Program-made: the position numbers and the translations under genes
Source of the DNA: an uncultured Desulfomonile sp.
GTDB taxonomy: Bacteria > Desulfobacterota > Desulfomonilia > Desulfomonilales > Desulfomonilaceae
DNA length: 64,000 bases
NCBI GenBank assembly: GCA_903952205.1
Contig: CAJBEZ010000098.1
Location: forward strand, 1-64,000
Reading direction: 5' to 3'
Notes under the pieces: model-generated
Told to the model about the DNA's origin: nothing
Seen by the model: only the letters and a program-made list of their open reading frames with translations
Databases searched by the model: none
In this document: positions 20,766 to 54,852 of the stretch, one piece after another
How the letters are laid out: every line of letters starts with the position of its first letter
How positions within the stretch are numbered: position 1 is the first letter of the stretch

Positions 20766-22424
20766 CTAAGGAGTCTTGATAACGGACTGAAATTTTTTGT
20801 AGGCGCCCTGTAAAAACAGTTTCTTCCAATCCTCATTAGTCATGGGAGTTATTTTCCCCTTTTGAACAGTGTCATTCCATCCTTCAAAGAAGACCATCTC
20901 CATGCCAACCGCCTTAACGCCATCACTGAAAGATCTTTCAGTCTCAAAGGGGCCGATAGCCCACTGGAGAAAACCTTTGTCGGATCTGCCGTTTAAAAAA
21001 AAGACGTCCGCTGTAACAGTCGGATTACCAGGCAATATCGCGAACCGGTTTAGAAGTATCGATCCTTCTGAAGAGTTAGAGTCAATCGGCCCCCCTTCCT
21101 CAGATCCTTTCACAAGCAAATTGTAGACGTCTTCGTGAAACTCCTGTTCGCATACGGACGAACAGATTTTGTCCGCTCGGCTCAATTGCTTCAGGAAATT
21201 CCCGATATTTGGCTCGATGTATATCTTAACCTGTTTTTTCTCTTTTTCGGTAGATGGAGCCGCCGATTTAGGCACAAGAGTTGTCTGTTTGGTAACCAGA
21301 ATTGTCTGTTCAGCGAGTGCCGTCAGACATGCAGAGCCTGTATTGATCGAATACTTGGAAGAGGAAACAACCGGCAAATCCAGAATCGTTTTTAAACACA
21401 GCTCATAAAAGGAAGCTCCTGATGCGTCCGGGTTGAACTGTGTTTGGTTTAACCCTGGAACCCCAATTTTAGGGCCTTTCTTACCAAAAAAGACATTGTT
21501 TATTGCCAGAGTGTCCGAGACCTTTTTTCTGTTAACTTTGGGATCATGGGCCAAAAAGGCTTCTGTCAGGTTATCTATCACTGATTGGTGCAAACAGTAG
21601 CGCTCGCCCAGGAACTGGACGCCGACCCCCATGGCCTTGTTGACTCTTGGGATGTTCTTGTCCCTGGCGTAAGCCAGGACATCTTCAACAGTAAGAGAAA
21701 CATCGTCATTTATTAGTCCCTTAAAAGACGGGAGATCGGACGGGCCTACAAGTCGCTCGTAAAACGTGGAGATTAGGTTGAGATTATCCAGCGCTTTTGA
21801 GTTTTCGGGCTTGGCAAGTCCTTTAAGAATTTCCACAGCCGTCTCAAAAGGGAAAAGCATATACAGCCTTTGGGCAAACCACTTCTGTTCGACTTTGACA
21901 TCGAATGTGGCTTTGCAGAGGAATTGCGTCCCCCTAAAGTACCGGCTCAAGTCTTCTGATGAAGCGTAATGTCCCCGTGGCGTGTTTTGAGGGTCGTTAT
22001 TGAATTCGGAAACCCTTTTCATAACCTCTTCTGCAACTTGAGTCTGGATTTCAGCATCAGGGTTGACGAGCTTGCGAGCCATTTCAACGAATATTAGAGC
22101 GTCGCCATTCATCCCCATTTGCTTAATTTGATCACAGAGATCTTTCAGTCTCGGATATAGGACTGATTGTTCATATTCTATGAGAATTTTCTGTGTTTTA
22201 AGTTTTGTCGCCTGGAAGATAAAATTTGCTGGAAAATAAATATCCTTGCCTGCTTCAACCTGTTCGGCGTACCAATTCTGAGGGGAATCTATCGGCTTCA
22301 GAAAACGTGACTCTTCCGGGAACTTACTTTTCTCGGTTGCTGACGCTCCCAGTGGAGCAAGACAGAGCATAACCATGGCGATGGCCATCGCCACCTTGTG
22401 CGCCGAACTCAGAAGTATTTTCAT
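20766..22424 (-). CDS. Exported protein of unknown function (552 aa)
   Basis: The start at ATG 22424 is chosen because AAGGGGAC lies upstream and it puts a signal peptide first (MKILLSSAHKVAMAIAMVML, cleavage near ASATEK). The mature protein is soluble, mixed helical, with no recognised domain; Cys residues occur in EMARK-distant places such as ADKICSSVCEQEFHEDVYN and STGSACLTAL, which could form disulphides. It is divergent from the ECF sigma factor gene, sharing a 272-base intergenic region, so it could belong to the same envelope-stress regulon. That link is inference from position. Confidence 0.6.
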   Translation of the reverse strand: MKILLSSAHKVAMAIAMVMLCLAPLGASATEKSKFPEESRFLKPIDSPQNWYAEQVEAGKDIYFPANFIFQATKLKTQKILIEYEQSVLYPRLKDLCDQIKQMGMNGDALIFVEMARKLVNPDAEIQTQVAEEVMKRVSEFNNDPQNTPRGHYASSEDLSRYFRGTQFLCKATFDVKVEQKWFAQRLYMLFPFETAVEILKGLAKPENSKALDNLNLISTFYERLVGPSDLPSFKGLINDDVSLTVEDVLAYARDKNIPRVNKAMGVGVQFLGERYCLHQSVIDNLTEAFLAHDPKVNRKKVSDTLAINNVFFGKKGPKIGVPGLNQTQFNPDASGASFYELCLKTILDLPVVSSSKYSINTGSACLTALAEQTILVTKQTTLVPKSAAPSTEKEKKQVKIYIEPNIGNFLKQLSRADKICSSVCEQEFHEDVYNLLVKGSEEGGPIDSNSSEGSILLNRFAILPGNPTVTADVFFLNGRSDKGFLQWAIGPFETERSFSDGVKAVGMEMVFFEGWNDTVQKGKITPMTNEDWKKLFLQGAYKKFQSVIKTP

Positions 22425-22696
22425 TGAAGTCCCCTTGCAAGGCCATCCTGTGCAGGCCATTTTGTTGGTCGCTGATTGTACATTCGGAACTTGTCAGGAT
22501 ATCTGACAATCCACTGGATTTCGGTTAAATGATACTGCGCCTGGGTTGAGTCGGTCAAGTTAGTTCTTAACTACCCAAAATTTGTTGTCATAATCTTTTA
22601 TGAAATCCGAATCATTTTAGATAGCAATCCGAGAAGGGTTAATGATATGAATCATTGTTATTCCTATCTTTATTTTGGCTCATTTAGCAGTGAGTT

Positions 22697-23302
22697 ATGG
22701 TCTCGATCAACGAAAACAAGGACTTCACTCTCGTGGGGCAATGCCTTTCAGGGTCAGAATCCGCATGGATGGAATTTTATTCGCGCTTTGAAAGACTCGT
22801 TCGAATGGTTGTAAGGAGGCGGTTGCACAATTCTGAAGATGCAACCGAAGACGTGGTCCATGATGTTTTCATAACGCTTATATCTGCCCTTAAAAACTAC
22901 AATTCATCATATTCATTGCAGAATTTTGTCTGCACGATTGTAGAACGAGTGTGCGTAGACCGATACCGTTTTTCTAATGCCTCCAAAAGAAACGCTGAAA
23001 CCCATTCGCTGGACGATGAGAATTCCGGAGTTGTTTATCAGGTGATGAAAAGTTCGAACCAGCCGTGCCAGGAAGAAGCGCTGATTCTTGCGCAGGAAGC
23101 AGAGATAGTTAGGCGAGCATTGCGTTTACTCGGAATGAAGTGCCGTGAGCTACTCAAATTGCGATATTACGACGAGGCCCCGTACTCAAAAATTGCGGAA
23201 CTTACTGGGATTACTGAAAATACGCTGACCGTTCAGACTTCGCGCTGCATTCGAGAACTCAGGAACATTCACCGGAATCTTGTTCAGAGCGGGTACAAGT
23301 AG
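22697..23302 (+). CDS. ECF-type RNA polymerase sigma factor
   Basis: 201 residues. Region 2 covers about 20-90 (WMEFYSRFERLVRMVVRRRL, DATEDVVHDVFITLISALKN, QNFVCTIVERVCVDRYRFSN) and region 4 about 135-195 (CRELLKLRYYDEAPYSKIAE, LTGITENTLTVQTSRCIREL). It should direct transcription of an envelope-linked regulon. The stop TAG overlaps the GTG start of the anti-sigma gene (TAGTG), so both are made together. The RBS before ATG is weak. The downstream row of exported caspase, CHAT and OmpA genes is the natural candidate regulon, but no shared promoter motif was established. Confidence 0.9.
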   Translation: MVSINENKDFTLVGQCLSGSESAWMEFYSRFERLVRMVVRRRLHNSEDATEDVVHDVFITLISALKNYNSSYSLQNFVCTIVERVCVDRYRFSNASKRNAETHSLDDENSGVVYQVMKSSNQPCQEEALILAQEAEIVRRALRLLGMKCRELLKLRYYDEAPYSKIAELTGITENTLTVQTSRCIRELRNIHRNLVQSGYK

Positions 23303-24411
23303 TGAAGACTCTTGATAAAAATAACAGGGAGAACCACCCCCGAGACATGCTCCTCGGGTATCTCGAAGGGACTCTGTCCGTAGAAGATCATGACATGGTG
23401 CGTGGACACTTGGCGCAATGCGAAGAATGCGCTTCGGAAATTGATTCATTGGGCAAGTTGGCGGAAATATTGAAATCGGAAAAACATGTTTTTTGTCCCG
23501 AACCATGGGAGTGGTATGAATTCATAGAAAATCGACGTGACCCCGGCGGGAGACTATCCTCACACTTGGAAATCTGCCCCTTGTGCAGCGCTGAAATAGC
23601 CAATTACAATCATAGCGCCACTCAGGAAACTCTACCCACGATAATCAAAGAAGCTCTCAACAAAGCTTACCCGGAAACTTCTCATTTCAACCAGTCTGAG
23701 TCGAACAATGGCGTCACGTGGATCCCAAACTGGTTGAGCCCTATGTTCCGGTTCCCAACGCTGGCGTTTGGAGCCGCCTTGGCGGCAATCCTTGCGGTAG
23801 TCTTACTGTATCCCCGTGGAAATGTCCCAACCTTCATTGGGGTTAGTTCAGAGGATTGGGAAGAAGCTCGCCCCGTGGCCAAAACAAAATCAGCGCTACC
23901 CAAGTCTGTCCCGGCTCAAAAGGAATCTAAAGCGGTTGGCGCCAATTCACAGTTCCAAAATCGTACTCCCAAATCTCAATCTGTTGAGCAATCGAAACCA
24001 AAGGTCGCCCTTGTTGTCGTATTTTCTGGATTCGATAAGCCTTTGCCGCAGTCAACAGTGGATTCGCTTTATGAGCAACTCAGGCCAAGAGCGGATTTAG
24101 AGAAAAGATTTCAATTCTCAACACCGGCGCAATTGAAACAATTCCTGGACAAAACCGTAGGCCGAAATCTTTCCCCAACCCGGATATTGAGAGAATTCTA
24201 CAAGGAATCTTCAATAAATTTCTCCCTTGTAGAAAATGTTAAAGCTGATAAAGATAAATTCGGACTAAAATCGCAGCTTGTTGATACACACAACGACCAA
24301 ATTTTGGCTGAGTCCATTCAGTCGGGGTTATCTGGGACCGAATTGGCTTCGAGGATAAATGACTCATTAGCGTTGTTAAATGATGTGAAAATCGAAAAGC
24401 GGACTAAATGA
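23302..24411 (+). CDS. Membrane anti-sigma factor with zinc-finger domain
   Basis: 369 residues. N-terminal anti-sigma zinc finger of the HxxxCxxC type (VRGHLAQCEECASEID), then a second one (SSHLEICPLCSAEIANYNH, with WYEF before it), a single membrane helix at about 151-172 (FPTLAFGAALAAILAVVLLY), a Pro/Lys/Gln-rich linker and a C-terminal domain beginning KVALVVVFSGFDKPLPQS. The last domain, predicted periplasmic, is shared with the C-terminus of the protein at 57707-60115. It should hold the cognate sigma factor inactive until a periplasmic signal arrives. GTG start, coupled to the sigma gene. Confidence 0.85.
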   Translation: MKTLDKNNRENHPRDMLLGYLEGTLSVEDHDMVRGHLAQCEECASEIDSLGKLAEILKSEKHVFCPEPWEWYEFIENRRDPGGRLSSHLEICPLCSAEIANYNHSATQETLPTIIKEALNKAYPETSHFNQSESNNGVTWIPNWLSPMFRFPTLAFGAALAAILAVVLLYPRGNVPTFIGVSSEDWEEARPVAKTKSALPKSVPAQKESKAVGANSQFQNRTPKSQSVEQSKPKVALVVVFSGFDKPLPQSTVDSLYEQLRPRADLEKRFQFSTPAQLKQFLDKTVGRNLSPTRILREFYKESSINFSLVENVKADKDKFGLKSQLVDTHNDQILAESIQSGLSGTELASRINDSLALLNDVKIEKRTK

Positions 24412-24469
24412 TTTATTAACAAACCCGCAACCACGTTCTGTGGGAATTGTGATAAGGGAGGGCTCAACA

Positions 24470-25462
24470 ATGAACCGGAAATCCATCGCCTACCTCTTTG
24501 GCTTGGTTTTAATCATGACGGTCTTTTGCTCCGCTGTTCCAGGGATGACCATGGAAAACGGTCCCGGTATGCAGTCCAAAGGGGACAAGTGCTTAGCCGC
24601 AAAAGAAAAATATAACGAGGGGGTTCAATTAATAAATTATAAGGCTCGTCGTGAAGCTTTTCAAAAAGCCGTGGAACTTTGCCCAGATTATGCTGAAGCG
24701 CATGTAAACCTTGCTGACGCTCTCGAAAAACTAGGAGTGGAAGAAAGGGCAAAGTTTAGTGAAGAAAAGGTCAAGAATGGGAACAAACTGCTGGATGACG
24801 CCGTAGAACATTACTCCAGAGCCCTCAAGTTAAAACCGGAACTGGTGGCCGCCCAAATCGGCCTTGGTGATGTGTACGTTTCAAGGGGAAGCTATCCACT
24901 TGCCATTGAGCAATACAAGAAGGCCCTGAAACTTAAACCAGAGAATTTCGGAGTGGAAGCACGGTTGAAAGGAGCTGAAGGACTAGCTGGCGCTAACTCA
25001 AATGAGGTAAGGACAGGGTCTCAGATAATCAGAGACGTGAAAGAAAAAAATCTGACAGTCGCATTAAAAACAATGGGGATTGAGGATTACACGGTAGCTG
25101 ACACTGCCAGGCAGTCCTTCAACAACATCCTTTTTGAAGGATGGTCTTCCGCTATACGACCAGGTGAACCGGTCAACCAGTTGAACGAAATCGGAAAGGC
25201 TCTGGCGTCCAAGGAGATGTCGTCTTTCAAATTCATAATTGAAGGTCATGCCAACGCTGCCGGCCCTTTTGATCGCAACATGGTTGTATCGAACGAAAGG
25301 GCAGCGGCTGTAAAGGAATATCTTGTCAAGAATTATAGAATAGATCCCAGTAGAATCATAACTCAAGGTTTCGGATACAATTCGCCCAAACATAATCCGG
25401 CTACCGATGCTCTGAATCGCCGGGTCGAAATCGTCTTCTTTAATGAGGAAAACAAAAAATGA
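24470..25462 (+). CDS. Exported TPR-OmpA protein
   Basis: 330 residues from ATG 24470, with GGGAGGG 7 bases upstream. Signal peptide, then three to four TPR units (YNEGVQLINYKARREAFQKA; KLKPELVAAQIGLGDVYVSR), and a C-terminal OmpA peptidoglycan-binding domain (IIEGHANAAGPFDRNMVVSN, SNERAAAVKEYLVKNYRIDP, FGYNSPKHNPATDALNRRVE). It likely anchors partners to peptidoglycan in the periplasm. Its N-terminal TPR part is clearly paralogous to the protein at 41568-42443. The stop overlaps the start of the caspase gene (ATGA). It contains an octapeptide, MGIEDYTV, also found in the next protein. Confidence 0.85.
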   Translation: MNRKSIAYLFGLVLIMTVFCSAVPGMTMENGPGMQSKGDKCLAAKEKYNEGVQLINYKARREAFQKAVELCPDYAEAHVNLADALEKLGVEERAKFSEEKVKNGNKLLDDAVEHYSRALKLKPELVAAQIGLGDVYVSRGSYPLAIEQYKKALKLKPENFGVEARLKGAEGLAGANSNEVRTGSQIIRDVKEKNLTVALKTMGIEDYTVADTARQSFNNILFEGWSSAIRPGEPVNQLNEIGKALASKEMSSFKFIIEGHANAAGPFDRNMVVSNERAAAVKEYLVKNYRIDPSRIITQGFGYNSPKHNPATDALNRRVEIVFFNEENKK

Positions 25463-26901
25463 ACAGATTTCTAATCGCAAAAATCCCTTGTCCTAAGTTT
25501 TGCCTCAGGCCAACAGTGATGTTGATGTCATTTATACTCCTATTAAGCCTGTGGCTGATCACACCGCCGGCGGTGCAAGCCACACCACAGGATCTTTCCA
25601 ACAGTGAGTTGTATGCGGTGTTGGTCGGCGTCGCAAACTATCGTGACACATCGTTAAACCTAAAGCTATCAGCCAGAGACGCTCAGGACTTTTATGCGTT
25701 TTTGCAGGAACGGGGGAAGCTTTTCAAGAAAACCCATATTCGGCTTTTGGTCAATGAACAGGCTACGAGAGAAAACGTTACCAAGGCCATTCGAGATGAC
25801 CTGAAACCGGCCGGTAAGGACGATGTAGTAATAATTTTTCTGTCTGGGCATGGCGGTCCTGATGCCGTCAGGACAGACGAATTTTACTTCCTGACTCACG
25901 ACGCTGATCGTGAAAACCTTTTTGGGTCAGCGCTTCCTATGACCACATCCGGACTGTTCAAGGGAATTGATTCCGATCGGCTTATCCTTATTTCCGACGC
26001 CTGTCATTCAGGGGCCTTCAGTTCCGCTCTTGATAAGTCCTCAGCAAAAGCCGCCGACATATTCTTTTCAGTTTTCAAGAATTTACAGGGGAGATTTGCT
26101 TTTGCTTCCAGCAGGCCGGACGAAAGTTCATGGGAGGACGCGGAGAAGTTTGGCAACAGCACATTTACACACTTTGTACTCAAGGGACTTCGAGGCGCAG
26201 CCTGCAACAAATCCAGCAACGGAGTCATCACTGTAAAGGACTTTTACGAGTATGTATACCAAGGAACACGGGCTGAAACGAAAGGGAAGCAAAACCCGCA
26301 ACTTTACGCCGCAAAGGGACGAGCCGATGAGACCCCCATGTTCAGGGCGCCGGTCTACAATAACCCATTAAATATTAAGGTTTATTTTATGACACAGGAT
26401 GATGATGGCGAAGTAAAACCCCTGACGAATGATTCCACGCTTAAGTCCGGGCAGCGCATTGGCCTTGGGTTCCAGGCTGACGCTGACTGCTATGTGCATG
26501 TGGTCTGGTGGGATTCCAATGGAAATGTGGGGCGCCTGTTCCCGAATCCGAAGCTTACTGAGGGCAATGGTGAAGTTAAGGCAGGGGTCCCCCTGTGGTT
26601 GCCTTACAAACAGGGGAAGCACTGGTACGTGTTGGACAAAAATGAGGGAGAAGAGACCATCTATCTCGTAGCTAGCAGAGAACGCAATCCCAAGCTTGAG
26701 GAACTTTATACAAAATTGAAATCTTCAGGACTTGAGCGGGAATTCAATCTCATGGGAATAGAAGACTACACTGTGCCCGAAAAAGCGAAACAGCTTTCCG
26801 GTAAGGACAAACAACAGCTCTTTGAGAAGATGGAAAATCAGATCAAAGTAGTTGGGGCGGATAGCGCCATCAGTATCAAATTCAAGCATGTAGCGCCCTG
26901 A
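25459..26901 (+). CDS. Exported caspase-fold (peptidase C14) protein with DUF4384
   Basis: 480 residues. A long N-terminal region with a hydrophobic helix (VMLMSFILLLSLWLITPPAV) acts as signal peptide or anchor. The caspase p20-like domain spans about 55-290, with catalytic His131 in FLSGHGGPD and Cys182 in SDACHSGAF. DUF4384 follows (about 320-440: LGFQADADCYVHVVWWDSNG, GRLFPNPKLTEG). Metacaspase-like enzymes of this class usually cut after Arg or Lys. The gene overlaps the TPR-OmpA gene by 4 bases and precedes the CHAT gene by 63, so the three form an operon. Periplasmic or outer-membrane-facing location is inferred from the signal. Confidence 0.88.
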   Translation: MNRFLIAKIPCPKFCLRPTVMLMSFILLLSLWLITPPAVQATPQDLSNSELYAVLVGVANYRDTSLNLKLSARDAQDFYAFLQERGKLFKKTHIRLLVNEQATRENVTKAIRDDLKPAGKDDVVIIFLSGHGGPDAVRTDEFYFLTHDADRENLFGSALPMTTSGLFKGIDSDRLILISDACHSGAFSSALDKSSAKAADIFFSVFKNLQGRFAFASSRPDESSWEDAEKFGNSTFTHFVLKGLRGAACNKSSNGVITVKDFYEYVYQGTRAETKGKQNPQLYAAKGRADETPMFRAPVYNNPLNIKVYFMTQDDDGEVKPLTNDSTLKSGQRIGLGFQADADCYVHVVWWDSNGNVGRLFPNPKLTEGNGEVKAGVPLWLPYKQGKHWYVLDKNEGEETIYLVASRERNPKLEELYTKLKSSGLEREFNLMGIEDYTVPEKAKQLSGKDKQQLFEKMENQIKVVGADSAISIKFKHVAP

Positions 26902-26964
26902 TTAATCATGATCGACAATAGTCTGCTGCCCCTATGTGGCTAGGGACGAAAAGTGGAGGTCACT

Positions 26965-29900
26965 ATGTTCTACAGATTCATACGAGTGACGTTTATTTGC
27001 ATGATGATCTTGTTAGGGGCTTCGACTGGGTTCGCCCAGTCTGAAAAAGAGGGTTTCGCCCTGGAAAAGGAAGCAGACCAGATCCTAAAAAAGTCTCAAT
27101 CCAATTCGGACCTGGAAACAGCGCTTAAGAAATTCCAGGAAGCATTGAACATTTTTGAAAAAGCCGGCTCGGACAAAGGCAAAGGGTATGCCCTTAATAA
27201 TATAGGTCTAGTTCATTTCAGGCTGGGGCAATACTCCAAATCGCTGGAATTTTATGAAAAGGCGCTCTCTATAAAAAAGAAGATTGGTGACACCAAAGGG
27301 GAAGGCTATTCGATCCACGGCATCGGCTCTGTTTACTCGTCATTGGCTGAATATCCCAAGGCATTGGAGTATTATGAGAAGGCTCTTCAAATAAGGAAAA
27401 AGACCGGTGACGTTAGAGGTGAAGGCGATACTCTGGGCGCCATGGGAGGGGTTTACTCGTCACTGGCTGAATATCCCAAGGCATTGGAGCATTATGAACG
27501 AGCCCTTGAAATCAGGAAGAAGTTGGGAGACGTAAGGGGTGAAGGAAGTGCGCTGGGCGCTATGGGAGGGGTTTACAACGCCTTGGGGCAGTATCCCAAG
27601 GCGCTTGAATATAATGAAAAGTCACTGGAAATAAGGAAAAGGATCGGTGACGTTAGAGGTGAAGGCGATACTCTGGGCGCCATGGGACGGGTTTACTCGT
27701 CATTGGCTGAATATCCCAAGGCATTGGAACATTATGAGCGATATCTGGAAATAAAGAAGAAGTTGGGGGACGTGCGTGGAGAAGGAACCGCATTACAAAA
27801 TATCGGCTCTGTTTACTCCTCATTAGCTCAATACAATAAGGCACTGGAATATCAGGAGAAGTCTCTGGAGATAAGTAAAAAGACCGGTGACGTTAGAGGT
27901 CAAGGGTATAACTATCAATCCATCGGCTCTGTTTACTCCTCATTGGCTGAATATCCCAAGGCATTGGAGTATTATGAGAAGGCTCTTCAAATAAGGAAAA
28001 AGACCGGCGACGTCAGAGGTGAAGGAGATACTCTGGGCGCCATGGGGTCTGTTTACAGAGCCATGGCCCAGTATCCCAAAGCGCTTGAATATAATGAAAA
28101 GTCACTGGAAATAAGGCAAAAGATCGGTGACGTTAGAGGTGAAGCAGGCGCACTGCGTGAGATTGGTGAGGTTTATGCTGCATTAGGTAAATATTCTAAG
28201 GCGTTGGAACAGTATAATCGCTCTCTTGAAATAGACAGGAAGATTGGAGACATCAGGGGAGAAAGCAGTTCTCTTATTGATCTGGGCAATATCTACCGTT
28301 TGCAGGGCCAGTATTCCAAAGCCCTTGAAAGCCATGAACGTTCGTTTGAAATAAAGAAAAAGATTGGAGATGTCGCTGGGGAGTCCGCATGTCTTAACAA
28401 TATAGCAAATATATACAGCGTGTTAGGGCATTACCCAAAGGCGCTGGATTATTATGAGCGATCCATTGAAATAACAAAGAGGATTGGAGCCGTTAAAGGT
28501 GAAGGCTTATTGTTGTCAAACCTGGGTATAATTTACAGAAAACTTGGTCAACAGTCAAAAGCTCTTGATTATTACAAAAATTCGCTTGAAATAAGAAAAA
28601 GGATAGGTGACCTGGAGGGAGAAGCGGCGGTGTATTCTCTCATAGGATTGTTGTACGCCGACATGGGAAAATACTCAGATGGGCAGGCGGCCCTTGAAAA
28701 GGCGCTTCAAATAAACAAGACCATCGGAAAACCAACCAAAGGAGTGGAAAACAACCTGGCCAATCTTTTTCTCGACAGTGGCGATCTGTCAAGAGCCGAG
28801 ACAATTATTAACGAGTCCGGATATGACTCAACAAAGGCCCGGCTGAGTTTGCTGAAAAAAGACTATGTCTCGGCGGGAAAGTATTATGAAAAAGGGGTCG
28901 CCGCTGCCGAAAAAACAGGCGCCACAGACGGGCTATTTATAAGCTACACTGGATTCGCAACCTCAAACGAGGCTTTGGAGAACTATGAGAAGGCTGAGGA
29001 ATATTATGAAAAGGCGATGAATCTTCTAGAGGAGGTAAGGTCAGGGCTCTTGCCTTCTGAACGAAAAAATTTCTTTGAAGTCAAGATGGGGGGATTTTCC
29101 CGAATAGAGCCGGCTAAAGGGTTAACCCGAGTTCGTATGAAACTTAATCGCCAGGACGGGGGTATCCAGGCGCTGGAGGTCACAAAAGCAAGAGCGTTCG
29201 CTGACCATCTGTCCGAGACTTCAGCTTCGGGAGCGTCTGGAATTCCAAAGGAAACCATGGAAAAGGAGCAGTATCTTGTGAACCGGCTGGTTGCGCTCAA
29301 GAAAGAGCTTGCAAAGACGGATAGACTCAAACAGTCAGCGAGGTATGAGATCCTGTCCAAGGACACCCAGGATGCCGAGGCAGACTTGGGAGCTTTTGTG
29401 GATAGTCTTTGGAAAAATCACCCATCTTATGCGGCGGTCAAGTATCCGCGGCCTATAGGAATAAAAGACTCAGCTCTGGCGCCTAAAGAGTGCGTGGTCA
29501 TGTTCGATGTTTCAGGTTCAGGGGTCATGATAAAGCTTATTCGAGACAAGAAGGAGGCCGAAAGTTTTTTCAAGACGTGGGACATTGCAGACCTTGTGAA
29601 AGACGTTATGAGATTTAGGGCGCCTTTTGAAAATAAAAATCTGAGGGAATTTGATCCAGAACTTGCGGAAAGCCTCTATCGGAAACTCTTACAGGCGGTA
29701 CTGGTCGATGTGCCAAAAGGAACTCCACTGATCATCATTCCGGACGGGATTCTGGCTGTATTGCCGTTCGAAGCTCTGGTGACAGGAGGGAAAGCGACGT
29801 GGAAAAAACTGGAGGACAAGAACTGGCCTGAAAAGTTCACATACTATCCCGAAGGGATAACATTCCTCGGAGATGATTATCCTATCAGCTATTACCAATC

Positions 29901-30672
29901 CTTGTCAGCCCTTACGCTCGTCAGAAACATGGGCGCCAAGATAAAACCTAAGGATAGCGTCCTCGTGGTTGCGGATCCTGTATTCAACCTGAAAGACGAA
30001 CGGGCTCAACTGGCAAGTCCAATCAGGTCGGCGGAAAAGGAGAAAGAATACAATATTAAACTAATGCAAGCGATTGAGGAGAGTGGTGGGCCGACTTTCA
30101 ATCAACTGCCTGAGACCGGGATTTTGGCTGAAAATCTCGCGAATATGTATGGGGACAATTGTCTGGCTCTTACGGGCCTCAAGGCCGACAAATCTGATTT
30201 TCTCACGAAAGTGGCGCCTCGGATCGATCAATTCGGCAGTGTGGTGTTTGCGACTCACGGTGTAGTGTCAAGCAAGACCGCTGGGCTTATGGAACCGTTT
30301 CTTGCGTTAACCATGGTTCCGCACGGTAAGGATGGGTTCCTCAAGATGTCGGATATATTATCGCTCAAGATGAATGCTGACATAGTCGCTCTGACCGCAT
30401 GCCAGACTGGTTTGGGCAAGGAAGTCTCCGGCGAGGGCGTGGTCAGCATGGGTTACGCTTTCCAATATGCAGGCGCCAAATCCGTGCTCATGTCACTATG
30501 GGAGGTTGAGGCTTCCTCCGCTGTCACTCTGGCTGAAAATTTCCTCAGGTACCGTAAGTCAGGAAAGACCAAGCTGGAATCACTCAAAGCGGCAAGAGAC
30601 GACATCCGCAATGCCGGTTACAAGCATCCGTTCTTCTGGAGTGGATTCATACTGGTTGGTGAAGCGTCTTGA
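26965..30672 (+). CDS. Exported TPR-CHAT protein 1
   Basis: 1235 residues from ATG 26965 (GGAGGT upstream). Signal peptide MFYRFIRVTFICMMILLGAS, cleavage near GFAQ. About 13 TPR units of 40 residues each (consensus ALEYYEKALQIRKKTGDVRG, EGDTLGAMGGVYSSLAEYPK) fill 70-600, followed by degenerate TPRs and a C-terminal CHAT domain (caspase HetF-associated with TPRs), about 890-1235. Catalytic His1098 (VFATHGVV) and Cys1146 (LTACQTGLG) are present. CHAT proteases are usually activated through their TPRs. Here an export signal is present, which is not the usual setting of CRISPR- or gasdermin-linked CHAT proteins. Several TPR repeats are near-identical in DNA. Confidence 0.93.
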   Translation: MFYRFIRVTFICMMILLGASTGFAQSEKEGFALEKEADQILKKSQSNSDLETALKKFQEALNIFEKAGSDKGKGYALNNIGLVHFRLGQYSKSLEFYEKALSIKKKIGDTKGEGYSIHGIGSVYSSLAEYPKALEYYEKALQIRKKTGDVRGEGDTLGAMGGVYSSLAEYPKALEHYERALEIRKKLGDVRGEGSALGAMGGVYNALGQYPKALEYNEKSLEIRKRIGDVRGEGDTLGAMGRVYSSLAEYPKALEHYERYLEIKKKLGDVRGEGTALQNIGSVYSSLAQYNKALEYQEKSLEISKKTGDVRGQGYNYQSIGSVYSSLAEYPKALEYYEKALQIRKKTGDVRGEGDTLGAMGSVYRAMAQYPKALEYNEKSLEIRQKIGDVRGEAGALREIGEVYAALGKYSKALEQYNRSLEIDRKIGDIRGESSSLIDLGNIYRLQGQYSKALESHERSFEIKKKIGDVAGESACLNNIANIYSVLGHYPKALDYYERSIEITKRIGAVKGEGLLLSNLGIIYRKLGQQSKALDYYKNSLEIRKRIGDLEGEAAVYSLIGLLYADMGKYSDGQAALEKALQINKTIGKPTKGVENNLANLFLDSGDLSRAETIINESGYDSTKARLSLLKKDYVSAGKYYEKGVAAAEKTGATDGLFISYTGFATSNEALENYEKAEEYYEKAMNLLEEVRSGLLPSERKNFFEVKMGGFSRIEPAKGLTRVRMKLNRQDGGIQALEVTKARAFADHLSETSASGASGIPKETMEKEQYLVNRLVALKKELAKTDRLKQSARYEILSKDTQDAEADLGAFVDSLWKNHPSYAAVKYPRPIGIKDSALAPKECVVMFDVSGSGVMIKLIRDKKEAESFFKTWDIADLVKDVMRFRAPFENKNLREFDPELAESLYRKLLQAVLVDVPKGTPLIIIPDGILAVLPFEALVTGGKATWKKLEDKNWPEKFTYYPEGITFLGDDYPISYYQSLSALTLVRNMGAKIKPKDSVLVVADPVFNLKDERAQLASPIRSAEKEKEYNIKLMQAIEESGGPTFNQLPETGILAENLANMYGDNCLALTGLKADKSDFLTKVAPRIDQFGSVVFATHGVVSSKTAGLMEPFLALTMVPHGKDGFLKMSDILSLKMNADIVALTACQTGLGKEVSGEGVVSMGYAFQYAGAKSVLMSLWEVEASSAVTLAENFLRYRKSGKTKLESLKAARDDIRNAGYKHPFFWSGFILVGEAS
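27310..28150 (+). repeat. Near-identical 120-bp TPR-coding repeats
   Basis: Within CHAT protein 1, blocks about 130 bases long recur with few differences: 27322-27446 versus 27922-28046 (offset 600 = 5 units) and 27601-27654 versus 28081-28134 (offset 480 = 4 units). This shows recent intragenic duplication and predicts copy-number change among strains. Confidence 0.8.
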
Positions 30673-30943: not shown

Positions 30944-32062
30944 ATGAAGAGAAAAATGTTTCTACTGACACTGTGCGTCCTGTTACTAGGAATGGCTCCG
31001 GTATTTCATATTCAAGGAGTTTTTGCTTACACTTTGGATGACCTCCTGAATCTGACAAAAAAGATTCAGAATGAAAACCCCGGAATTGATTTTAGCTTAA
31101 AAACCGACAAAGATGAATACAAGGTGGGGGAAGATGTTTTAATAGAATTTAAGGCCGATAAAGACTGTTACCTTGCGCTTATCGACATCGGAACCAGCGG
31201 GAAAACCATAATACTTTTTCCCAATAAATGGCACCCGGACAACAAAATCGAAAAGGATAAACCCTATACAATTCCACCACTTGGAAGCGAGTTTTCGTAC
31301 AGGGTGATGGGGCCTGGAGGAGTGGAGCACATCAAGGCAATCGCCAGCGTGGACCCGGTACTATCCAAGATTGGATCCCTCCAGGAAGAACTTAAGCAAC
31401 CGATAGAAACCAAGCCGGAAAAGGGACAGGTATTCCTTAGTATGAAGGCCCCAGGAGCCGTTCTAAAAGACATTGGAATCGAATTTCAGAAATTGGATCC
31501 CAGCAAGTGGGCGACAAAAGAGTGCACTTTCAAGATTGCTGATGCAGGCACAGGGACCACACCTTATCCGGAACAGCCGCCTACGAGTGTGCCCCCTGGG
31601 ATAAAACCCACAGAGGCTCCAGAGGTATTTAAAGGTAAAGACGGGTTCTACGAAATACGGTATGACTCCGCAAAATGGCGGGTAGCCCCTAGGCCCGGCG
31701 ATAGCGCCGAAAAAACCTTCAATCATAAGACAGGCGATGCGAATGCGCTTGTTTTGGTTCCGCCAGTCCAGGCCTCGGTTCCTATGGAAACTATCAAGCA
31801 AGCGTTTCTGGAGATCATTAAAGGAGTTGCGTCTGATGTCGTAGTCAAGGAGGACAAGGAAATCCAGATTAACAACACCACAGTCACGTCTATGATAGTA
31901 AATGGCAAGAGTGATGGGAATCCTTATTATTTCCATGCTTACTTGTGGAAGGGCCCCTCCGGTGTGGTAGAAGTAGTTGGTTCTTGCCCTGAAAACGTGC
32001 TGCCGCAGGTCAGTGATGACATCGAAAAGTTCTTGAATGGACTGGTCATTACCAAACCTTAG
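30944..32062 (+). CDS. Exported DUF4384 protein with PsbP/DUF1795-like C-terminus
   Basis: 372 residues. Signal peptide MKRKMFLLTLCVLLLGMAPV, cleavage near VFAY. The DUF4384 domain (about 45-150) has LIEFKADKDCYLALIDIGTS, then KTIILFPNKWHPDNKI, matching the domain fused to the caspases at 25459 and 32262. After a Pro-rich linker (TPYPEQPPTSVPPGIKPTEA), residues 235-372 form a mixed alpha/beta domain (FYEIRYDSAKWRVAPRPGDS) that resembles PsbP/DUF1795-type folds. It thus looks like a caspase-free partner in the same compartment. It has its own 271-base upstream region, so separate control is possible. Confidence 0.8.
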   Translation: MKRKMFLLTLCVLLLGMAPVFHIQGVFAYTLDDLLNLTKKIQNENPGIDFSLKTDKDEYKVGEDVLIEFKADKDCYLALIDIGTSGKTIILFPNKWHPDNKIEKDKPYTIPPLGSEFSYRVMGPGGVEHIKAIASVDPVLSKIGSLQEELKQPIETKPEKGQVFLSMKAPGAVLKDIGIEFQKLDPSKWATKECTFKIADAGTGTTPYPEQPPTSVPPGIKPTEAPEVFKGKDGFYEIRYDSAKWRVAPRPGDSAEKTFNHKTGDANALVLVPPVQASVPMETIKQAFLEIIKGVASDVVVKEDKEIQINNTTVTSMIVNGKSDGNPYYFHAYLWKGPSGVVEVVGSCPENVLPQVSDDIEKFLNGLVITKP

Positions 32063-32261
32063 CAAAAGCACGGAAAGGTAGGATTCCAGGGACACAAAGC
32101 TATTATTATCGCAACGGATCTTTGCAAGGTGATACCAAGTTACCAAGTATTCATGGGAAAGCAGATTTCTTGTAAGAGTTAGTAAGGTTTAACGAATATT
32201 AATTTTGGCGGCTTTGGTAAGTCCCGATTGGAATATTCATAATAGCATCAGGAGGCGCTGG

Positions 32262-33758
32262 ATGAGTCGTTTATTTAGATTTTTCGCCTTTATCGGGATT
32301 GTGGCCATCGGTTTGACTTACGCCACAGGCGTGGGGCATGGCCAATATTTTGGAAAAGCAAAGGACTGGAAGGACATTTACATCCTTCCCACTAACCCAA
32401 ATCCTCAGAACAACATAAAACTGACGCTTTCAGCCGAAAAACAATCCCTAAAGCCGGGGGATGAACTGAAACTAACTTTCACCGCTGACAGGGAGTGTTA
32501 CTTGACCCTGATGGACATGGGAACTTCAGGAAAGATTCTCAGACTGTGGCCTAACGACTATTCAGGACAAGACAACCGGATAGGGGCTAACAGTCCAAGA
32601 ACTTTTCCAGGCCCAGGAGACAAGTTTCGCTACAGAATTTCTGCCCCGAATGGAACAGAGAACATCATAGCTTACGCCACTTCGGAAAAGGGCAAGAATC
32701 TGTCGGAACAGGAATTCATGCAACTTAAGAATACCGGATTCAAGGAATATCGTGGCAGCGCTAAGGATCTCGCGATAGAATTCAAACGCAGAACCGACAC
32801 CCTTGATCCAAACATGTACTGGGGTACAGCTCAGACCAATATCCTGATAACTTCTGATTCGGCTTCGAGACCTGATCCTCGTCCTGATCCTCCTCCGGAG
32901 GTGCGACCCCAGTCGGCGCTGTACATGATGTGTGTGGCGGCACAACAGCATGACCGAAAACTGAAACACTGTAACACTGACGCACAAAGGATGGCGGAGG
33001 TATTTCAGTCCAAGCTGGGCATAGAAAAATCGAACACCAAGGTGTTCATAGATGCTGACTACCAAGCGTTCGTTTCGGGGATCCAATGGTTGGCGTCAAA
33101 CACACGGCCGGAAGATGGAGTTATCATTTATTACCGGGGCCATGGTGGTCAGGTTCGCGATAGGCCTCCAATTGATGATCCTGACGGTTTGGACGAATTC
33201 CTGTATCTTCATCCAGGCAGACCAAATAACATGAGGGATGACGAAGCAATCAGAAAGAAAATCTATTTGCTCGATGATGAGCTAAATGTGCTCTTGAAGA
33301 AGATACCCGCAAGGAAAAAAATTTTTATCTCTGACTCGTGTCATTCGGGAAGCCAGACAAAAGATGTCGTAAATATTCCAGAAATGGCTTCGCAGTATGA
33401 ACCCTCAACCGATCATGACAGTGCAAAGAACGCTTCCAAGCCCAAAATGAAAAGCAAACCCACGAACTACGGGAATGACAACGAAACTGTAATTGGGGCC
33501 TGCCTTGATAATGAGGTTTCATGGGAAATCAATATGGCTCAGGAATTTAAGGGGGGTGTATTAACTCACTTTTTGCTCGATGCCATAGAAAAAGGTAGCC
33601 CCGACATGGAGAGCGCTTTTCGTGAGGCCAAGATAAATACTATCCGCTTCATTCAGGACTGGCCCAAGAAATATCCTGACAAAAAGCCTCCGTCGATGCA
33701 AACGCCGTGCCTCACTGACCCGCATGGATTGTTGAAGGAACTCAGATTCCGCAATTAA
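32262..33758 (+). CDS. Exported DUF4384-caspase protein (domain order reversed)
   Basis: 498 residues from ATG 32262, with AGGAGG 6 bases upstream. Signal peptide MSRLFRFFAFIGIVAIGLTY. DUF4384 comes first (about 50-170: LTFTADRECYLTLMDMGTSG, LRLWPNDYSGQDNRIG), then a Pro-rich linker (PDPRPDPPPEVRPQ) and a C-terminal peptidase C14 domain with catalytic His294 (YYRGHGGQV) and Cys360 (SDSCHSGSQ). In the 25459 protein the order is the opposite. The ALYMMCVAAQQHDRKLKHCN start of the caspase domain replaces the usual ALLIGI, with DAQRM as normal. The serpin gene follows 81 bases downstream. Confidence 0.88.
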   Translation: MSRLFRFFAFIGIVAIGLTYATGVGHGQYFGKAKDWKDIYILPTNPNPQNNIKLTLSAEKQSLKPGDELKLTFTADRECYLTLMDMGTSGKILRLWPNDYSGQDNRIGANSPRTFPGPGDKFRYRISAPNGTENIIAYATSEKGKNLSEQEFMQLKNTGFKEYRGSAKDLAIEFKRRTDTLDPNMYWGTAQTNILITSDSASRPDPRPDPPPEVRPQSALYMMCVAAQQHDRKLKHCNTDAQRMAEVFQSKLGIEKSNTKVFIDADYQAFVSGIQWLASNTRPEDGVIIYYRGHGGQVRDRPPIDDPDGLDEFLYLHPGRPNNMRDDEAIRKKIYLLDDELNVLLKKIPARKKIFISDSCHSGSQTKDVVNIPEMASQYEPSTDHDSAKNASKPKMKSKPTNYGNDNETVIGACLDNEVSWEINMAQEFKGGVLTHFLLDAIEKGSPDMESAFREAKINTIRFIQDWPKKYPDKKPPSMQTPCLTDPHGLLKELRFRN

Positions 33759-33839
33759 GGGATTTGAAGGTGGTAAGTTGGTGTCTTGTCTTTCTCAAAA
33801 GACAGCCTTGAGATGGATTTTTTCGAAAAGGGAAATTTA

Positions 33840-38173: not shown

Positions 38174-38229
38174 TAGTTTACGCCAATGGCCGTTCCAATT
38201 GGCTCTTTCCGAGGGTAGGAGGACAATTG

Positions 38230-41571: not shown

Positions 41572-42443
41572 CTCGTTTAATTTTTATCCTGTGTGCGCTT
41601 ATTTCGACGCCGCTATTAGTGACCGCTGATGACAACTGTGACAAGGCAAAAGAATATTATCAAGAGGGCGTAAACGCTCTTCAATTCGCCAAACGCAAAG
41701 TCGCTTTTGAGAAGGCCGTGAAATTATGCCCGACGTACGCCGAAGCGTATAATAATCTGGCGGACGCTTATGAAAACCTGGGCGAGTTTGAACAGGCTGA
41801 AAAATATTACAAACAGTCGGCTAACCTCAAACCAGATTTGTTCGTTCCTTTACTTGGGTTGGGCGAGTTGTACCTGAAGTCAGGAAGATACAAGGACTCT
41901 TACGATGCTTTTGTCGGAGGATTAGAGATCAAACCTGACAACGAGAGGCTTAAAGCAGGCCTTAAGGTGGCCGCTCAACGTGTTGAACAGGTCTCCAAAT
42001 TCCTGAAATCGGATAGTATCAAGTCTTGTATCGACGGGGACGAGACTTTTCGGCTCATGTGCATGTGCCCCGGCGATCATTATGAGTTTCTGAAGAAGAG
42101 AATCTGCGTGCCAACCCTGCATTTTATGTCTGGTTCAACCCAACTTACCTCGAACAGCAAAAAACAACTAACCGAAATTGGTCTGGCTTTACAATCCGAT
42201 ACGCTTGGCAAAAAGAAATGGTTCATCGTAGGACACGCTGACAGTATTGGGAGTCTGGAACGAAATCTTGAACTATCCAGACACCGGAGCGAAAGCGTTA
42301 GAGATTATCTTGTCAAAAAATGTAACCTGGACGAAAAATCGTTTAGCATAAAATGTTTTGGTCAGACCTGGCCATTGGATTCTAACGGTTCCAACGTTGG
42401 TCGAGGGCAAAACAGACGGGTTGAGATTATCCTGGATGATTGA
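41568..42443 (+). CDS. Exported TPR-OmpA protein 2
   Basis: 291 residues. Short signal peptide MTRLIFILCALISTPLLVTA; TPR section about 20-125 (CDKAKEYYQEGVNALQFAKR; LCPTYAEAYNNLADAYENLG), and OmpA domain about 175-291 (FMSGSTQLTSNSKKQLTEIG, WFIVGHADSIGSLERNLELS, SRHRSESVRDYLVKKCNLDE, GQNRRVEIILDD). The linker region contains five Cys residues, likely disulphide-bonded. Paralog of the protein at 24470-25462. Start overlaps the CHAT stop by 4 bases. Confidence 0.88.
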   Translation: MTRLIFILCALISTPLLVTADDNCDKAKEYYQEGVNALQFAKRKVAFEKAVKLCPTYAEAYNNLADAYENLGEFEQAEKYYKQSANLKPDLFVPLLGLGELYLKSGRYKDSYDAFVGGLEIKPDNERLKAGLKVAAQRVEQVSKFLKSDSIKSCIDGDETFRLMCMCPGDHYEFLKKRICVPTLHFMSGSTQLTSNSKKQLTEIGLALQSDTLGKKKWFIVGHADSIGSLERNLELSRHRSESVRDYLVKKCNLDEKSFSIKCFGQTWPLDSNGSNVGRGQNRRVEIILDD

Positions 42444-42676: not shown

Positions 42677-43387
42677 ATGTCCGGCCATATGTTTAAACCG
42701 CTTATTCTGATGTCGCTTTTGGCTGTAAGCTTGTTGTTCCTTCATTCCGTTTCTGTCTCCTGGGCGTCTGATGAGGCTGCAGGCGCGGGCCACGAGCTTG
42801 CAGTCATAGGCGAGGCGGGAGCCAAGGCCATCGATATCAAGATAAGCGCTCAAAAGCATGGAGGAGGCGCTCCGGGCAAAGATGACCCAGTGTCTGTGGT
42901 GATTACTCCATCTGCGCCTGCTTATGTCACCGCTATTTATATTTCACCTGAAGGTGACGCCGTGGTCCTTTTCCCCAACAAAAAAACCACTGATAATCAG
43001 TTGGCCCCAGGTAAAGATTACACCATTGTCGGTTCTGATTCCGGCCTGAAATCAGGATTCAGCCCAACAGAAGATAAAGACAAGATAGTGGTTTACGTCT
43101 CTTCAAAACAACTAATATTGCATCCGCTAAAGGCAGAGCAGGACCAGGAATTTATCGTCATCCCACATGACGCGGCCAAAGAAATGCAAACACTGGCTAA
43201 CAAAATAGCGGCTCTTTCGAAGGATGAAACCTTTAACCGCAAGTTGATTACACGCAAAACTCTGGCGCAGCCGGGACAGGGCGACAGCATAATGGCTTTG
43301 CCTAAGTCAGTCGAGAGCGTCCGACCTGCAGACGTGACAGGCGGTGTGGGAGTAAAAACCAAGACCAAGGCATCAGGCAATGATTGA
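42677..43387 (+). CDS. Exported DUF4384-like protein
   Basis: 236 residues; GGGGGG precedes ATG 42677. Signal peptide (MFKPLILMSLLAVSLLFLHS, cleavage near SWAS). Single DUF4384-like domain (about 60-165) with DPVSVVITPSAPAYVTAIYI and DAVVLFPNKKTTDNQLAPGK; the VVLFPNK motif is the same as in the other DUF4384 proteins here. C-terminal tail is helical then Val/Gly/Lys-rich. It is the fourth DUF4384 protein in 18 kb. Confidence 0.75.
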   Translation: MSGHMFKPLILMSLLAVSLLFLHSVSVSWASDEAAGAGHELAVIGEAGAKAIDIKISAQKHGGGAPGKDDPVSVVITPSAPAYVTAIYISPEGDAVVLFPNKKTTDNQLAPGKDYTIVGSDSGLKSGFSPTEDKDKIVVYVSSKQLILHPLKAEQDQEFIVIPHDAAKEMQTLANKIAALSKDETFNRKLITRKTLAQPGQGDSIMALPKSVESVRPADVTGGVGVKTKTKASGND

Positions 43388-51768: not shown

Positions 51769-54700
51769 CTAATTTCTAGCGCCGGCCCTTGACTCCGGTT
51801 GTACACCGGGATCACCCACCATGACGAACGCTGACCAGAAAAACGGATGTTCAAAACCCTCTTTTCGTATGTGAGTCTTTGCTTCCTGCCAGGACTCGAG
51901 TTTACTTTTGCCTTCTTTCATTTTCTTAAAGAACTCATCCATCAGCATTACTGAAGATAGGTCCGCTACCGACCAGAGGCTCATCAATACTGTCTTGGCC
52001 CCGGCGCATTGGAAAGCCCTCCCCATACTCATGACCCCTTCACCCGCCAGATTAGCGCCTAGGCCTGACTTGCAGGCGGTGAGGGCGGCAACGTCGGTGT
52101 CCAACTTCAGACCGGCCACTTCGCTCATTGTCAATAAGCCGTCTTTTCGGTTGGGCACCATAGTCAGATACAACACGGGCTCAAGAAGCCATGCCTCCTT
52201 GTTGGAAATGTCTCCATGAGTGGCCAACACTACTGACCCATAATTTTTGTTTGGAAGCCTAATTTGCTCCATGAATTTGCTCTTGGAGGCTTGTAGGCCT
52301 GTATATGCGTCGCATTTGTCGCCGTACAGTTTCACAAGGCTATTCGCCAATTGCTCTGTAGCTTCAAGCCTCGGTATTGATTTGGAAACCCCCTCATTAA
52401 TGTCCTCTACTGCAACCATAAGCTTCGGGTATTGAACGCCGGCGGACTGGCCAGTGGGTGATTGACTATTGGCGCCCTGCGCTCGAGGGTCTTTTGCCTC
52501 AAATACCGGGTCAGCCATGACCAGAATTCGGTCTCCCTCGACTCTGGATTTTGATTTGGACTTAACATTTTCTCCCAGCCCTCTCGTCATTGTGAGAGCG
52601 GTTAAAGATTGCGCATAGACAAGGGGATAACTATCTCCTACGTAATGTAGACCTTCTGGATAATCTCCCCATTGGCCTTTTTTCCAGTCGGCTTTTCCAT
52701 TCATTACAAGCGCTTCGAAGGGCAGCAAAGCAAGAACGCCGTCAGGAATAATAGTAACGGGAGTCCCGTTCGGCACATCCGACAAGCGGTCTTCCAGGAG
52801 CCTTTTGTAAAGCTTTGAAGCAAGATCAATATCAAACGCTCTTAGATTATGCCCGTCGAAAGATTTTTGGAAACTTAATACGTCCTTTTCAAGTTCTTCG
52901 GGTTTCCAGTCAATGAAGCTACCGCTCACGACCTTTTTCCCTTTCAGAAGTCTCGCCCCCACACCTTCGCTCGTAACATCGAAGATAAGAATGTGTTCTT
53001 CCGGAGTCAAAGCGGCCGTCTCCAGTTTAACGGGGGTGGGGTATTTTACTGAGGCGTAGTCCTTGTATTTCTCTCGAATTGACTTTACGAAGGATGCTTT
53101 TTCCGTTTCAGCGGTTTTGATCTGTCGTTTGATGTCGTTTACCCGTTCCTTGTCAACATCCTTGGGGATGGCGTCTATGGCCATTTTTAGTGAAGCGACC
53201 TTGTCGGAAACGTCCATCTCTTCTTTGCGAACTTCTTCTGGAACTCCGAAATATTCTCCGTCAAGCTTTTGAGCCAAAGTATCGGCAAATTCTCTCGCCC
53301 TCGTAATTTCACTGGGATAAATACTTTGAGATGCCTTGTCCTGCTTCAGGGTAACTCTAACAAGTCCTTTGGCCGGTTCGGAGCGGAGAAATCCATTTAT
53401 TTTGCCGGCGAAGAAATTCTGCCTTTCCGAAAGGAGTAGTTGAGATCTCATTTCCTCGGTAAGATCTACCGCTTTGGAATAGTACTGTGACGCCTGGGCG
53501 TAATTCTTTTTTGATTCGTAAACCCTTCCAAGTCCAGTGTACGCCGTGAAAAGTTCGTCAAAATTACCAGCCTTTTCAGCATTTTTCATAAGTTGTTCAT
53601 AATGCTTCTTGGCGGGGTCAAAATCTCCTTTAACCAAATACAGTCTTCCGAGTGATGAATCGTAGTCCGCTTCTTTAAGGTATGATTCGGCCTCTTGAGT
53701 CCTGCCGAGATCCAGGCAAATATCGCCCACAACCTTCTTTGCCCAATCGGGAGGCGATCCGGCTCTGTAGAATATTTCAAGGGCTTTCTTGCTATTTTCC
53801 AGGGCCTGGTCCGCATCACCGTTGTCAATCTGAACTTTAGCGATTTTCAGCAGCGCTTCGCCTTCAGCCATAGCCTCCCCCGTCTTTTTTGCAACATCGA
53901 GTGATGCCTGGAGAGACTCGATCGCTTTAACGGGCTCTCCGCGACTTGCGAAGAGACCTGCGAGATTGTTCAAGGCGATCAATTGGTTACGATTTACTTC
54001 TTTGTTCGCCTCCAGAGCCCTCATGTATTCTTGGGCGGCCTGAGAAAACCGCCCACGGTTTTTTTCCATGACGCCGATGTTGTTCAGTGTCATCGGAGTT
54101 CCTCGAACTGAGGCCTTTTCAGAGAATATTTTCAAGGCTTCTTTGTTCAAGGCTTCTGCCTCTTCATAATTGGCCCACGCAATATTAATCGCTGCGAGAT
54201 TGCGAAGAGCCACTGCCTCCTGTTCGGAATTTTTGATCCAACGAGCTATTTTCAGGGCTTTGTCATAATAGTCTGCGCCTTTCTGAAACTGCCCCGTTAA
54301 ATAATATATGTGTCCCAGATTCTCATAGGCGCTCATCTCTCCCTGGACATCACGAGCTTTTTGCGCTTGGGCTAATGTATTTTTATAGAGTTTTACCGCT
54401 GAGGCGGGGTCCTTTCGCGCCAGTTCCATAAGCGTCTTATCTATGTCCATCGCAAGTTCGTTTAAGTATGGTACCCTTGGAATGGCCAATTTTCTGGCAG
54501 GAATAACCTCAACAGGCCTACGCGCAGCTTTCGGTTTTTCCTCATTGTCGGAGACATTCGGAACTACAAGTTCGGTTGGCTCATCAGATCCTCCTGGAGC
54601 CGGTCTCATACCGGGGGTAATGTTCAAGTTGAGATTGATGCCAAATCCACCGCCGCCACCACCAGAGGGTCGGGGACTCCCCCCTCCATGTCCACCACCA

Positions 54701-54852
54701 CCACCGCCTCCTCCTCCTCCTCCGGGACCGAACGCATAAAGGGTCTCAGTAGGAACCATGAAGATCAACAAGGCCAGAAGCGCCAAAGGATAGCAACAGC
54801 GAAGGAATCTGCTTAAATGCGCCGTTTTACACCAACTGCGTAGGATAGTCAT
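51769..54852 (-). CDS. Exported TPR-CHAT protein 3 with poly-glycine N-terminus
   Basis: 1027 residues from ATG 54852 (AGGAGGACACA upstream). Signal peptide ends near ETLYAF, then a Gly/Ser/Pro stretch (GPGGGGGGGGGGGHGGGSP) and a Pro-rich segment with VPNVSDNEEKPKAARRP. TPRs cover about 170-480 (YENLGHIYYLTGQFQKGADY; NNLAGLFASRGEPVKAIESL); they are diverse, unlike the near-identical repeats of CHAT 1 and 2. The CHAT domain (about 690-1027) has His879 (VLATHGDIS) and Cys927 (LTACKSGLG). It runs opposite to the other cluster genes and lies next to an exporter. Confidence 0.93.
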   Translation of the reverse strand: MTILRSWCKTAHLSRFLRCCYPLALLALLIFMVPTETLYAFGPGGGGGGGGGGGHGGGSPRPSGGGGGGFGINLNLNITPGMRPAPGGSDEPTELVVPNVSDNEEKPKAARRPVEVIPARKLAIPRVPYLNELAMDIDKTLMELARKDPASAVKLYKNTLAQAQKARDVQGEMSAYENLGHIYYLTGQFQKGADYYDKALKIARWIKNSEQEAVALRNLAAINIAWANYEEAEALNKEALKIFSEKASVRGTPMTLNNIGVMEKNRGRFSQAAQEYMRALEANKEVNRNQLIALNNLAGLFASRGEPVKAIESLQASLDVAKKTGEAMAEGEALLKIAKVQIDNGDADQALENSKKALEIFYRAGSPPDWAKKVVGDICLDLGRTQEAESYLKEADYDSSLGRLYLVKGDFDPAKKHYEQLMKNAEKAGNFDELFTAYTGLGRVYESKKNYAQASQYYSKAVDLTEEMRSQLLLSERQNFFAGKINGFLRSEPAKGLVRVTLKQDKASQSIYPSEITRAREFADTLAQKLDGEYFGVPEEVRKEEMDVSDKVASLKMAIDAIPKDVDKERVNDIKRQIKTAETEKASFVKSIREKYKDYASVKYPTPVKLETAALTPEEHILIFDVTSEGVGARLLKGKKVVSGSFIDWKPEELEKDVLSFQKSFDGHNLRAFDIDLASKLYKRLLEDRLSDVPNGTPVTIIPDGVLALLPFEALVMNGKADWKKGQWGDYPEGLHYVGDSYPLVYAQSLTALTMTRGLGENVKSKSKSRVEGDRILVMADPVFEAKDPRAQGANSQSPTGQSAGVQYPKLMVAVEDINEGVSKSIPRLEATEQLANSLVKLYGDKCDAYTGLQASKSKFMEQIRLPNKNYGSVVLATHGDISNKEAWLLEPVLYLTMVPNRKDGLLTMSEVAGLKLDTDVAALTACKSGLGANLAGEGVMSMGRAFQCAGAKTVLMSLWSVADLSSVMLMDEFFKKMKEGKSKLESWQEAKTHIRKEGFEHPFFWSAFVMVGDPGVQPESRAGARN
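54645..54735 (-). repeat. Gly-codon microsatellite (GGN repeats)
   Basis: About 90 bases made of GGA/GGT/GGC codons with runs such as GGAGGAGGAGGAGG, coding for the poly-Gly segment of CHAT protein 3. The coding strand is G-rich with repeated GG pairs, so it could slip in replication or fold into quadruplex-type structures. Confidence 0.7.

Follow-up and report, generated by a model that had tools for sequence, protein, structure and literature searches.

In Desulfomonilaceae, the genes for an ECF sigma factor and for a membrane anti-sigma factor with an envelope-type sensor fold are linked, across the family, to genes for caspase-like (C14) and CHAT proteases; this linkage is the robust new point of our analysis, which covers a stretch of 64,000 nucleotides from an uncultured Desulfomonile sp. 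(hereafter the window; genome of 4.78 Mb in 120 contigs) and its relatives. Discussion of caspase-clan proteases in bacteria has mostly centred on cytoplasmic effectors of cell death or of CRISPR systems. Here, exported caspase and CHAT enzymes are tied to a conserved ECF switch that has an envelope-type sensor. This connection suggests a physiological function beyond the cytoplasm and makes the neighbouring anti-sigma factor a concrete candidate substrate for these enzymes. We hold it to be reasonably probable that the locus is a Desulfomonilaceae-specific regulon module, in which an ECF switch with an envelope sensor controls an exported, envelope-anchored caspase/CHAT block plus a serpin.

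As read from the sequences, an envelope-sensing switch beside genes for exported caspase-like proteases appears to be an arrangement that the open-access literature does not describe. The sequence-only reading of the window had called it undescribed, and a search of open-access papers likewise gave no account of an ECF-controlled locus for exported caspase and CHAT proteins. What that reading observed is confirmed and its interpretation is partly supported; a proteolytic cascade, the serpin as its brake and the biological purpose of the locus are hypotheses.

Gene content, export signals and active sites

The locus starts with the sigma factor gene at 22697 (Table 1), and position 22424, where its beginning had been placed, lies inside a divergent DUF3160 gene. 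All Pfam domain calls in the block exceed the curated gathering cut-offs and reproduce the inventory reported earlier, namely two C14, three TPR-CHAT and one serpin protein, four DUF4384 domains (proteins at 25459, 30944, 32205 and 42677) and three OmpA domains (proteins at 24440, 35225 and 41568). The C-terminal region of the DUF4384 protein at 30944 has no Pfam match. The first five genes, which overlap or lie almost end to end, are probably transcribed together, while the gap between 35995 and 38227 (~36.0-38.2 kb) contains broken small ORFs, so that the block probably comprises at least two transcription units. A broken ORF for an exported ankyrin-type protein is found between the two halves (~36070-36500, plus strand), and related modules have C14-ankyrin proteins. 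The third CHAT gene had been counted with the block; we consider it a doubtful member, as it lies on the opposite strand behind ~8 kb of unrelated genes (43.9-51.7 kb; condensation domain, exporter, radical SAM, KAS-III-like). In this region and beyond (43920-51667 and 55326-57710), condensation-domain, radical SAM/B12 and KAS-III-like genes are located between two closely similar RND/MMPL-type exporters and possibly form a small biosynthesis cluster. Upstream of 14 sigma genes, a search for an ECF promoter motif performed no better than shuffled sequences, the alignment of orthologues gave no clear motif, and generic promoter and terminator scans stayed near background.

Table 1. Genes of the locus and associated genes, with positions in the window; "exported" refers to a predicted export signal.
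Product	Position	Strand	Evidence
ECF sigma factor	22697..23302	+	Sigma70_r2/r4_2 (Pfam); TIGR02937 3.9e-27
Anti-sigma factor, zf-HC2	23302..24411	+	Pfam, alignments, modelled fold
Exported TPR-OmpA (peptidoglycan-binding type) protein	24440..25462	+	Pfam; signal-peptide rule
Exported C14 caspase-DUF4384, His/Cys intact	25459..26901	+	Pfam; dyad; signal-peptide rule
Exported TPR-CHAT protein	26953..30672	+	Pfam; dyad; signal-peptide rule
Exported DUF4384 protein with extra C-terminal region	30944..32062	+	Pfam; signal-peptide rule
Exported DUF4384-C14 caspase, metacaspase-like	32205..33758	+	Pfam; PDB metacaspase profile match; model
Exported inhibitory-type serpin	33786..35102	+	Pfam E 2.9e-114; loop analysis; signal-peptide rule
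Exported OmpA-domain protein	35225..35995	+	Pfam; signal-peptide rule
Second exported TPR-CHAT protein; opens probable second transcription unit	38227..41571	+	Pfam; signal-peptide rule
Exported TPR-OmpA protein	41568..42443	+	Pfam; signal-peptide rule
Exported DUF4384 protein	42677..43387	+	Pfam; signal-peptide rule
Third exported TPR-CHAT protein, doubtful member	51769..54873	-	Pfam; signal-peptide rule
802-aa protein, C-terminal TM and TolB-N/LpoB-type domain as in the anti-sigma factor	57707..60115	+	searches 5e-14, 5.6e-69; alignment

The proposed envelope targeting agrees with a simple signal-peptide rule (charged start, hydrophobic core, small-residue cut site), which is not SignalP and was applied to several mechanically chosen starts: every one of the block's 11 non-regulatory proteins passes it, compared with 0/14 ECF sigma factors, 0/17 anti-sigma factors and 96/451 unrelated ORFs. 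Set against this background of 21%, the export signals of the block proteins stand far apart, despite the mechanical starts. Translation likely begins at internal ATG codons in the serpin gene and in the DUF4384-C14 gene before it, at ~32262 in the latter.

The His/Cys dyads, previously noted as intact, are present in both C14 proteins (motifs GHG and D[A/S]CHSG) and in all three CHAT proteins (ATHG and LTAC[Q/K][T/S]G) of the window. Where the alignment of a C14 domain spans both sites, His and Cys are kept in 33 of 34 cases, the sole exception being a protein on contig C203 of genome G012, in which Tyr replaces His. The Asp of the C14 DxC motif is kept, the sequence profile of the DUF4384-C14 protein matches metacaspases in the PDB, and metacaspase-4 is the nearest structure to the C14 domain model (Z 20.4, rmsd 2.8, 215 residues); the matches of this fold search went to the caspase domain and not to DUF4384. 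Judged by sequence and model, the window C14 enzymes look metacaspase-like and should require Arg or Lys at P1, as characterised C14 enzymes do, with the exception of animal caspases (PMC5756287). Orthocaspases and metacaspases that combine a C14 p20-type His/Cys domain with DUF4384 on one protein, as here, have been reported earlier; in contrast to the window, the passages on them mention no ECF switch, OmpA partner or serpin (PMC7475262, PMC8283722, PMC6426788).

Sensor domain and linkage across the family

The regulatory genes encode a sigma factor with Sigma70 regions 2 and 4 and a zinc-finger anti-sigma factor with a TM segment, the make-up of an ECF/membrane anti-sigma pair. The aligned anti-sigma factors share a pair of zinc-finger-like CxxC motifs, a TM segment (~150-172) and an outer domain that is conserved. 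Immediately outside the membrane is a conserved [VL]S[SD]..W motif, and the window protein also has a K/R-rich linker there, which is much shorter in several genera. In a shallow model (4 sequences; mean pLDDT 55.8, outer domain mostly 65-84), the outer domain resembles the N-terminal domain of TolB (Z 9.3, rmsd 2.9, 113 residues; Foldseek 3.5e-6), followed by weaker matches to FlgT, LpoB, PelC and CsgG. Since all of these are periplasmic or outer-membrane proteins, it is fair to infer that the anti-sigma factor reports the state of the envelope; the modelled switch would then probably read this state, although a shared fold alone is no proof of function.

Family searches of 148 relatives, plus extra stretches and local profile annotation, returned 17 anti-sigma genes of the window type in 11 genomes from 8 genera, nearly all with an ECF gene. 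A C14 or CHAT gene follows within 2.5 kb on the same strand in 13 of these 17 modules (0.04 expected); the formal P of 9e-32 overstates the linkage, since the distance limit was fixed after the loci had been seen and the modules share ancestry. All 8 genera are represented among the modules with such a downstream gene, and 4 of the 17 modules have none. The claim that an ECF/anti-sigma pair precedes the block is supported across genera, and its linkage to C14/CHAT is beyond chance. Co-occurrence in other genomes, which had been suggested as a check for TPR-CHAT, C14-DUF4384 and serpin genes, was found for C14 with DUF4384 (34 genomes across the phylum, 14.6 expected), and not for the serpin, which meets C14, CHAT and DUF4384 at chance level.

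Gene order is conserved in several larger blocks. In G001, the ECF and anti-sigma genes are followed by TPR-OmpA, CHAT, C14-DUF4384, DUF4384-C14, serpin, CHAT and DUF4384-C14 genes, and in G007 and G013 by DUF4384-C14, DUF4384, OmpA, C14-DUF4384, OmpA and serpin genes. The G016 block resembles the latter two, its ECF gene not being found on the same contig, and partial blocks without a serpin occur in G011, G012 and G017. Small modules combine ECF and anti-sigma genes with a C14 gene (G008, G009 C47, G013 C48, G014 C60, G017 C151) or with a CHAT gene (G009 C2, G014 C7); one further module of the C14 type is located in the window's own genome (G000, contig C69, L044 7237-10371). The C14 protein of G013 C48 carries ankyrin repeats, and an ANK-C14 protein of D. 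tiedjei has been listed earlier (PMC3932732). In a sample of 297 genomes of the phylum, the anti-sigma profile was matched over its full length only in the window genome and G009, both Desulfomonilaceae, with one partial match elsewhere, and by this sequence measure the anti-sigma type appears essentially specific to the family. The block itself is dispensable, given that no C14 gene was found in G002 (97% complete), G004 and G005, which belong to the same genus as the window. Arrays of related genes are also found apart from such modules: contig C39 of the window's own genome (L046) carries a tandem array of exported TPR-CHAT genes, and contig C13 of G114, from another family of the phylum, has six C14 matches in 20 kb (~54-73 kb).

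The serpin and its neighbours

The window serpin has a complete domain, an inhibitory consensus hinge (EEGTEASAAT) and a predicted P1 Met. A full domain and an inhibitory hinge are likewise features of chloropin and miropin, and most prokaryotic serpins have export peptides (PMC8233489, PMC10090351); unlike the window serpin, however, serpins of this type have not been reported within a caspase/CHAT locus. Serpin genes lie inside the block in five genera (G000, G001, G007, G013 and G016), accounting for 5 of the 8 serpins of the family (0.27 expected). A single origin of the locus serpins was rejected, as the tree, with weak support, needs at least two changes.

Across the 148 genomes, serpins are found together with C14 in 7 genomes where 8.4 are expected; the corresponding figures are 8 and 6.2 for DUF4384, and 10 and 7.3 for CHAT. 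A role as general C14/CHAT partner was rejected on the basis of these chance-level counts. Outside Desulfomonilaceae, C14 is present in none of 16 serpin genomes (4.9 expected). The predicted P1 residues of the five locus-linked serpins, placed by the usual hinge count and not by experiment, are Met, Ser, Ala, Ser and Thr, none of them basic; the same reading of nine unlinked serpins gives Lys in four and Thr, Ser or Gly in five. This variable, non-basic P1, the need of C14 enzymes for Arg or Lys and the chance co-occurrence make it unlikely that the serpin is a made-to-measure C14 inhibitor, and the cognate look ascribed to it earlier is not borne out. The physical linkage of the serpin to the proteases within the family is real, but the serpin is a poor candidate for this function; it could still act on CHAT or serine proteases.

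Possible modes of action

Csx29, a TPR-CHAT protease, cuts the anti-sigma factor Csx30 and relieves the inhibition of an ECF sigma factor (PMC10028731). This system (Csx29-Csx30-CASP-sigma with Cas7-11) and the window both bring together TPR-CHAT, ECF sigma and anti-sigma genes in one locus. Of the novelty claimed for the CHAT setting, the predicted export stands, whereas the association of CHAT with an ECF/anti-sigma pair has this precedent. The window differs in that its proteases, including all three CHAT proteins, carry predicted export signals, that its anti-sigma factor, unlike Csx30, combines a TM segment with a TolB-N-like outer domain, and that C14, DUF4384 and OmpA genes are added; no Cas7-11, Csx30 or CRISPR-type match was obtained among the window proteins scanned with Pfam and PADLOC. 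The best reading of the window locus is a variant of the Csx29-Csx30 theme that has been moved outside the cytoplasm. RseA/RsiW-type regulation pairs an ECF sigma factor with a single-pass anti-sigma factor bearing an outer domain. The window has the same arrangement, but its outer domain is TolB-N/LpoB-like and its neighbours are caspase-clan proteases, and a DegS/RseP-like gene is absent from the block.

The exported C14 or CHAT enzymes might themselves cut the outer domain or the K/R-rich linker of the anti-sigma factor (site-1) upon envelope damage, and the freed sigma factor would make more protease, resulting in a feed-forward loop that is an extracytoplasmic counterpart of Csx29-Csx30-CASP-sigma. 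This scenario extends the regulon explanation and is not its opposite. Tight adjacency of anti-sigma and protease genes, the conserved motif and basic linker just beyond the membrane, the basic P1 expected for C14 and the precedent of a TPR-CHAT protease cutting an anti-sigma factor (PMC10028731) speak for it; yet control of transcription explains the adjacency equally well, the cut site is only putative with a linker much reduced in several genera, and Csx30 works in the cytoplasm together with Cas7-11, which leaves the loop rather doubtful. The model first proposed for the window, in which the serpin acts as the cognate brake on a proteolytic cascade, is very improbable. It would account for the serpin genes in five blocks, the inhibitory-type hinge and the export signal that the serpin shares, but it conflicts with the co-occurrence counts, the non-basic P1 residues and the fact that three of the five serpin blocks lack a CHAT gene in the stretch examined.

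Predicted conflict systems commonly have caspase and CHAT domains as their effectors (PMC10907252), and the locus could accordingly encode an anti-phage or anti-predator cell-death system. This seems improbable to us, as the annotated neighbours include neither NACHT/STAND or nucleotide-signal genes nor a Cas gene and exported effectors would work outside their usual cytoplasmic site. A known defence system was rejected, PADLOC returning only the generic 'caspase' and 'TPR' profiles. The block might also have no joint function and reflect separate expansions of secreted-repeat and caspase-like genes, adjacent by chance, in large free-living genomes. While the 15 CHAT matches in the window genome, most of them outside the block, and the gene content varying among genera fit this idea, the ECF/anti-sigma linkage and the conserved neighbours in several genera render it quite unlikely.

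The regulon explanation that we favour draws on the linkage in 13 of 17 modules, the second module on contig C69, the conserved gene order, the export signals in 11 of 11 proteins, the intact active sites and the envelope-type sensor fold. Against it stand the missing promoter motif, the 4 of 17 modules that lack a downstream C14 or CHAT gene, the same-genus genomes in which no C14 gene was found, the division of the block into at least two units and the shallowness of the anti-sigma model. According to this model, the membrane anti-sigma factor would hold the ECF sigma factor, with its TolB-N/LpoB-like outer domain reporting envelope state, and the released sigma factor would drive expression of the exported-protein block. 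The metacaspase-like C14-DUF4384 and TPR-CHAT proteases, kept near peptidoglycan by their OmpA-domain partners, may then target proteins of the envelope or the surface, outside the cytoplasm, either in a damage response or in processing, and the serpin might shield the cell from serine-type proteases rather than switch the C14 enzymes off. The 802-aa protein is a possible associated output of the locus, and in G005 its homologue is encoded directly behind the ECF/anti-sigma pair. Further homologues occur in G001, G008, G012, G014 and G015. The N-terminal ~600 aa of this protein have no confident Pfam match and no PDB match by sequence; by eye, they show a His/Asp pattern resembling zinc-dependent phospholipase C.
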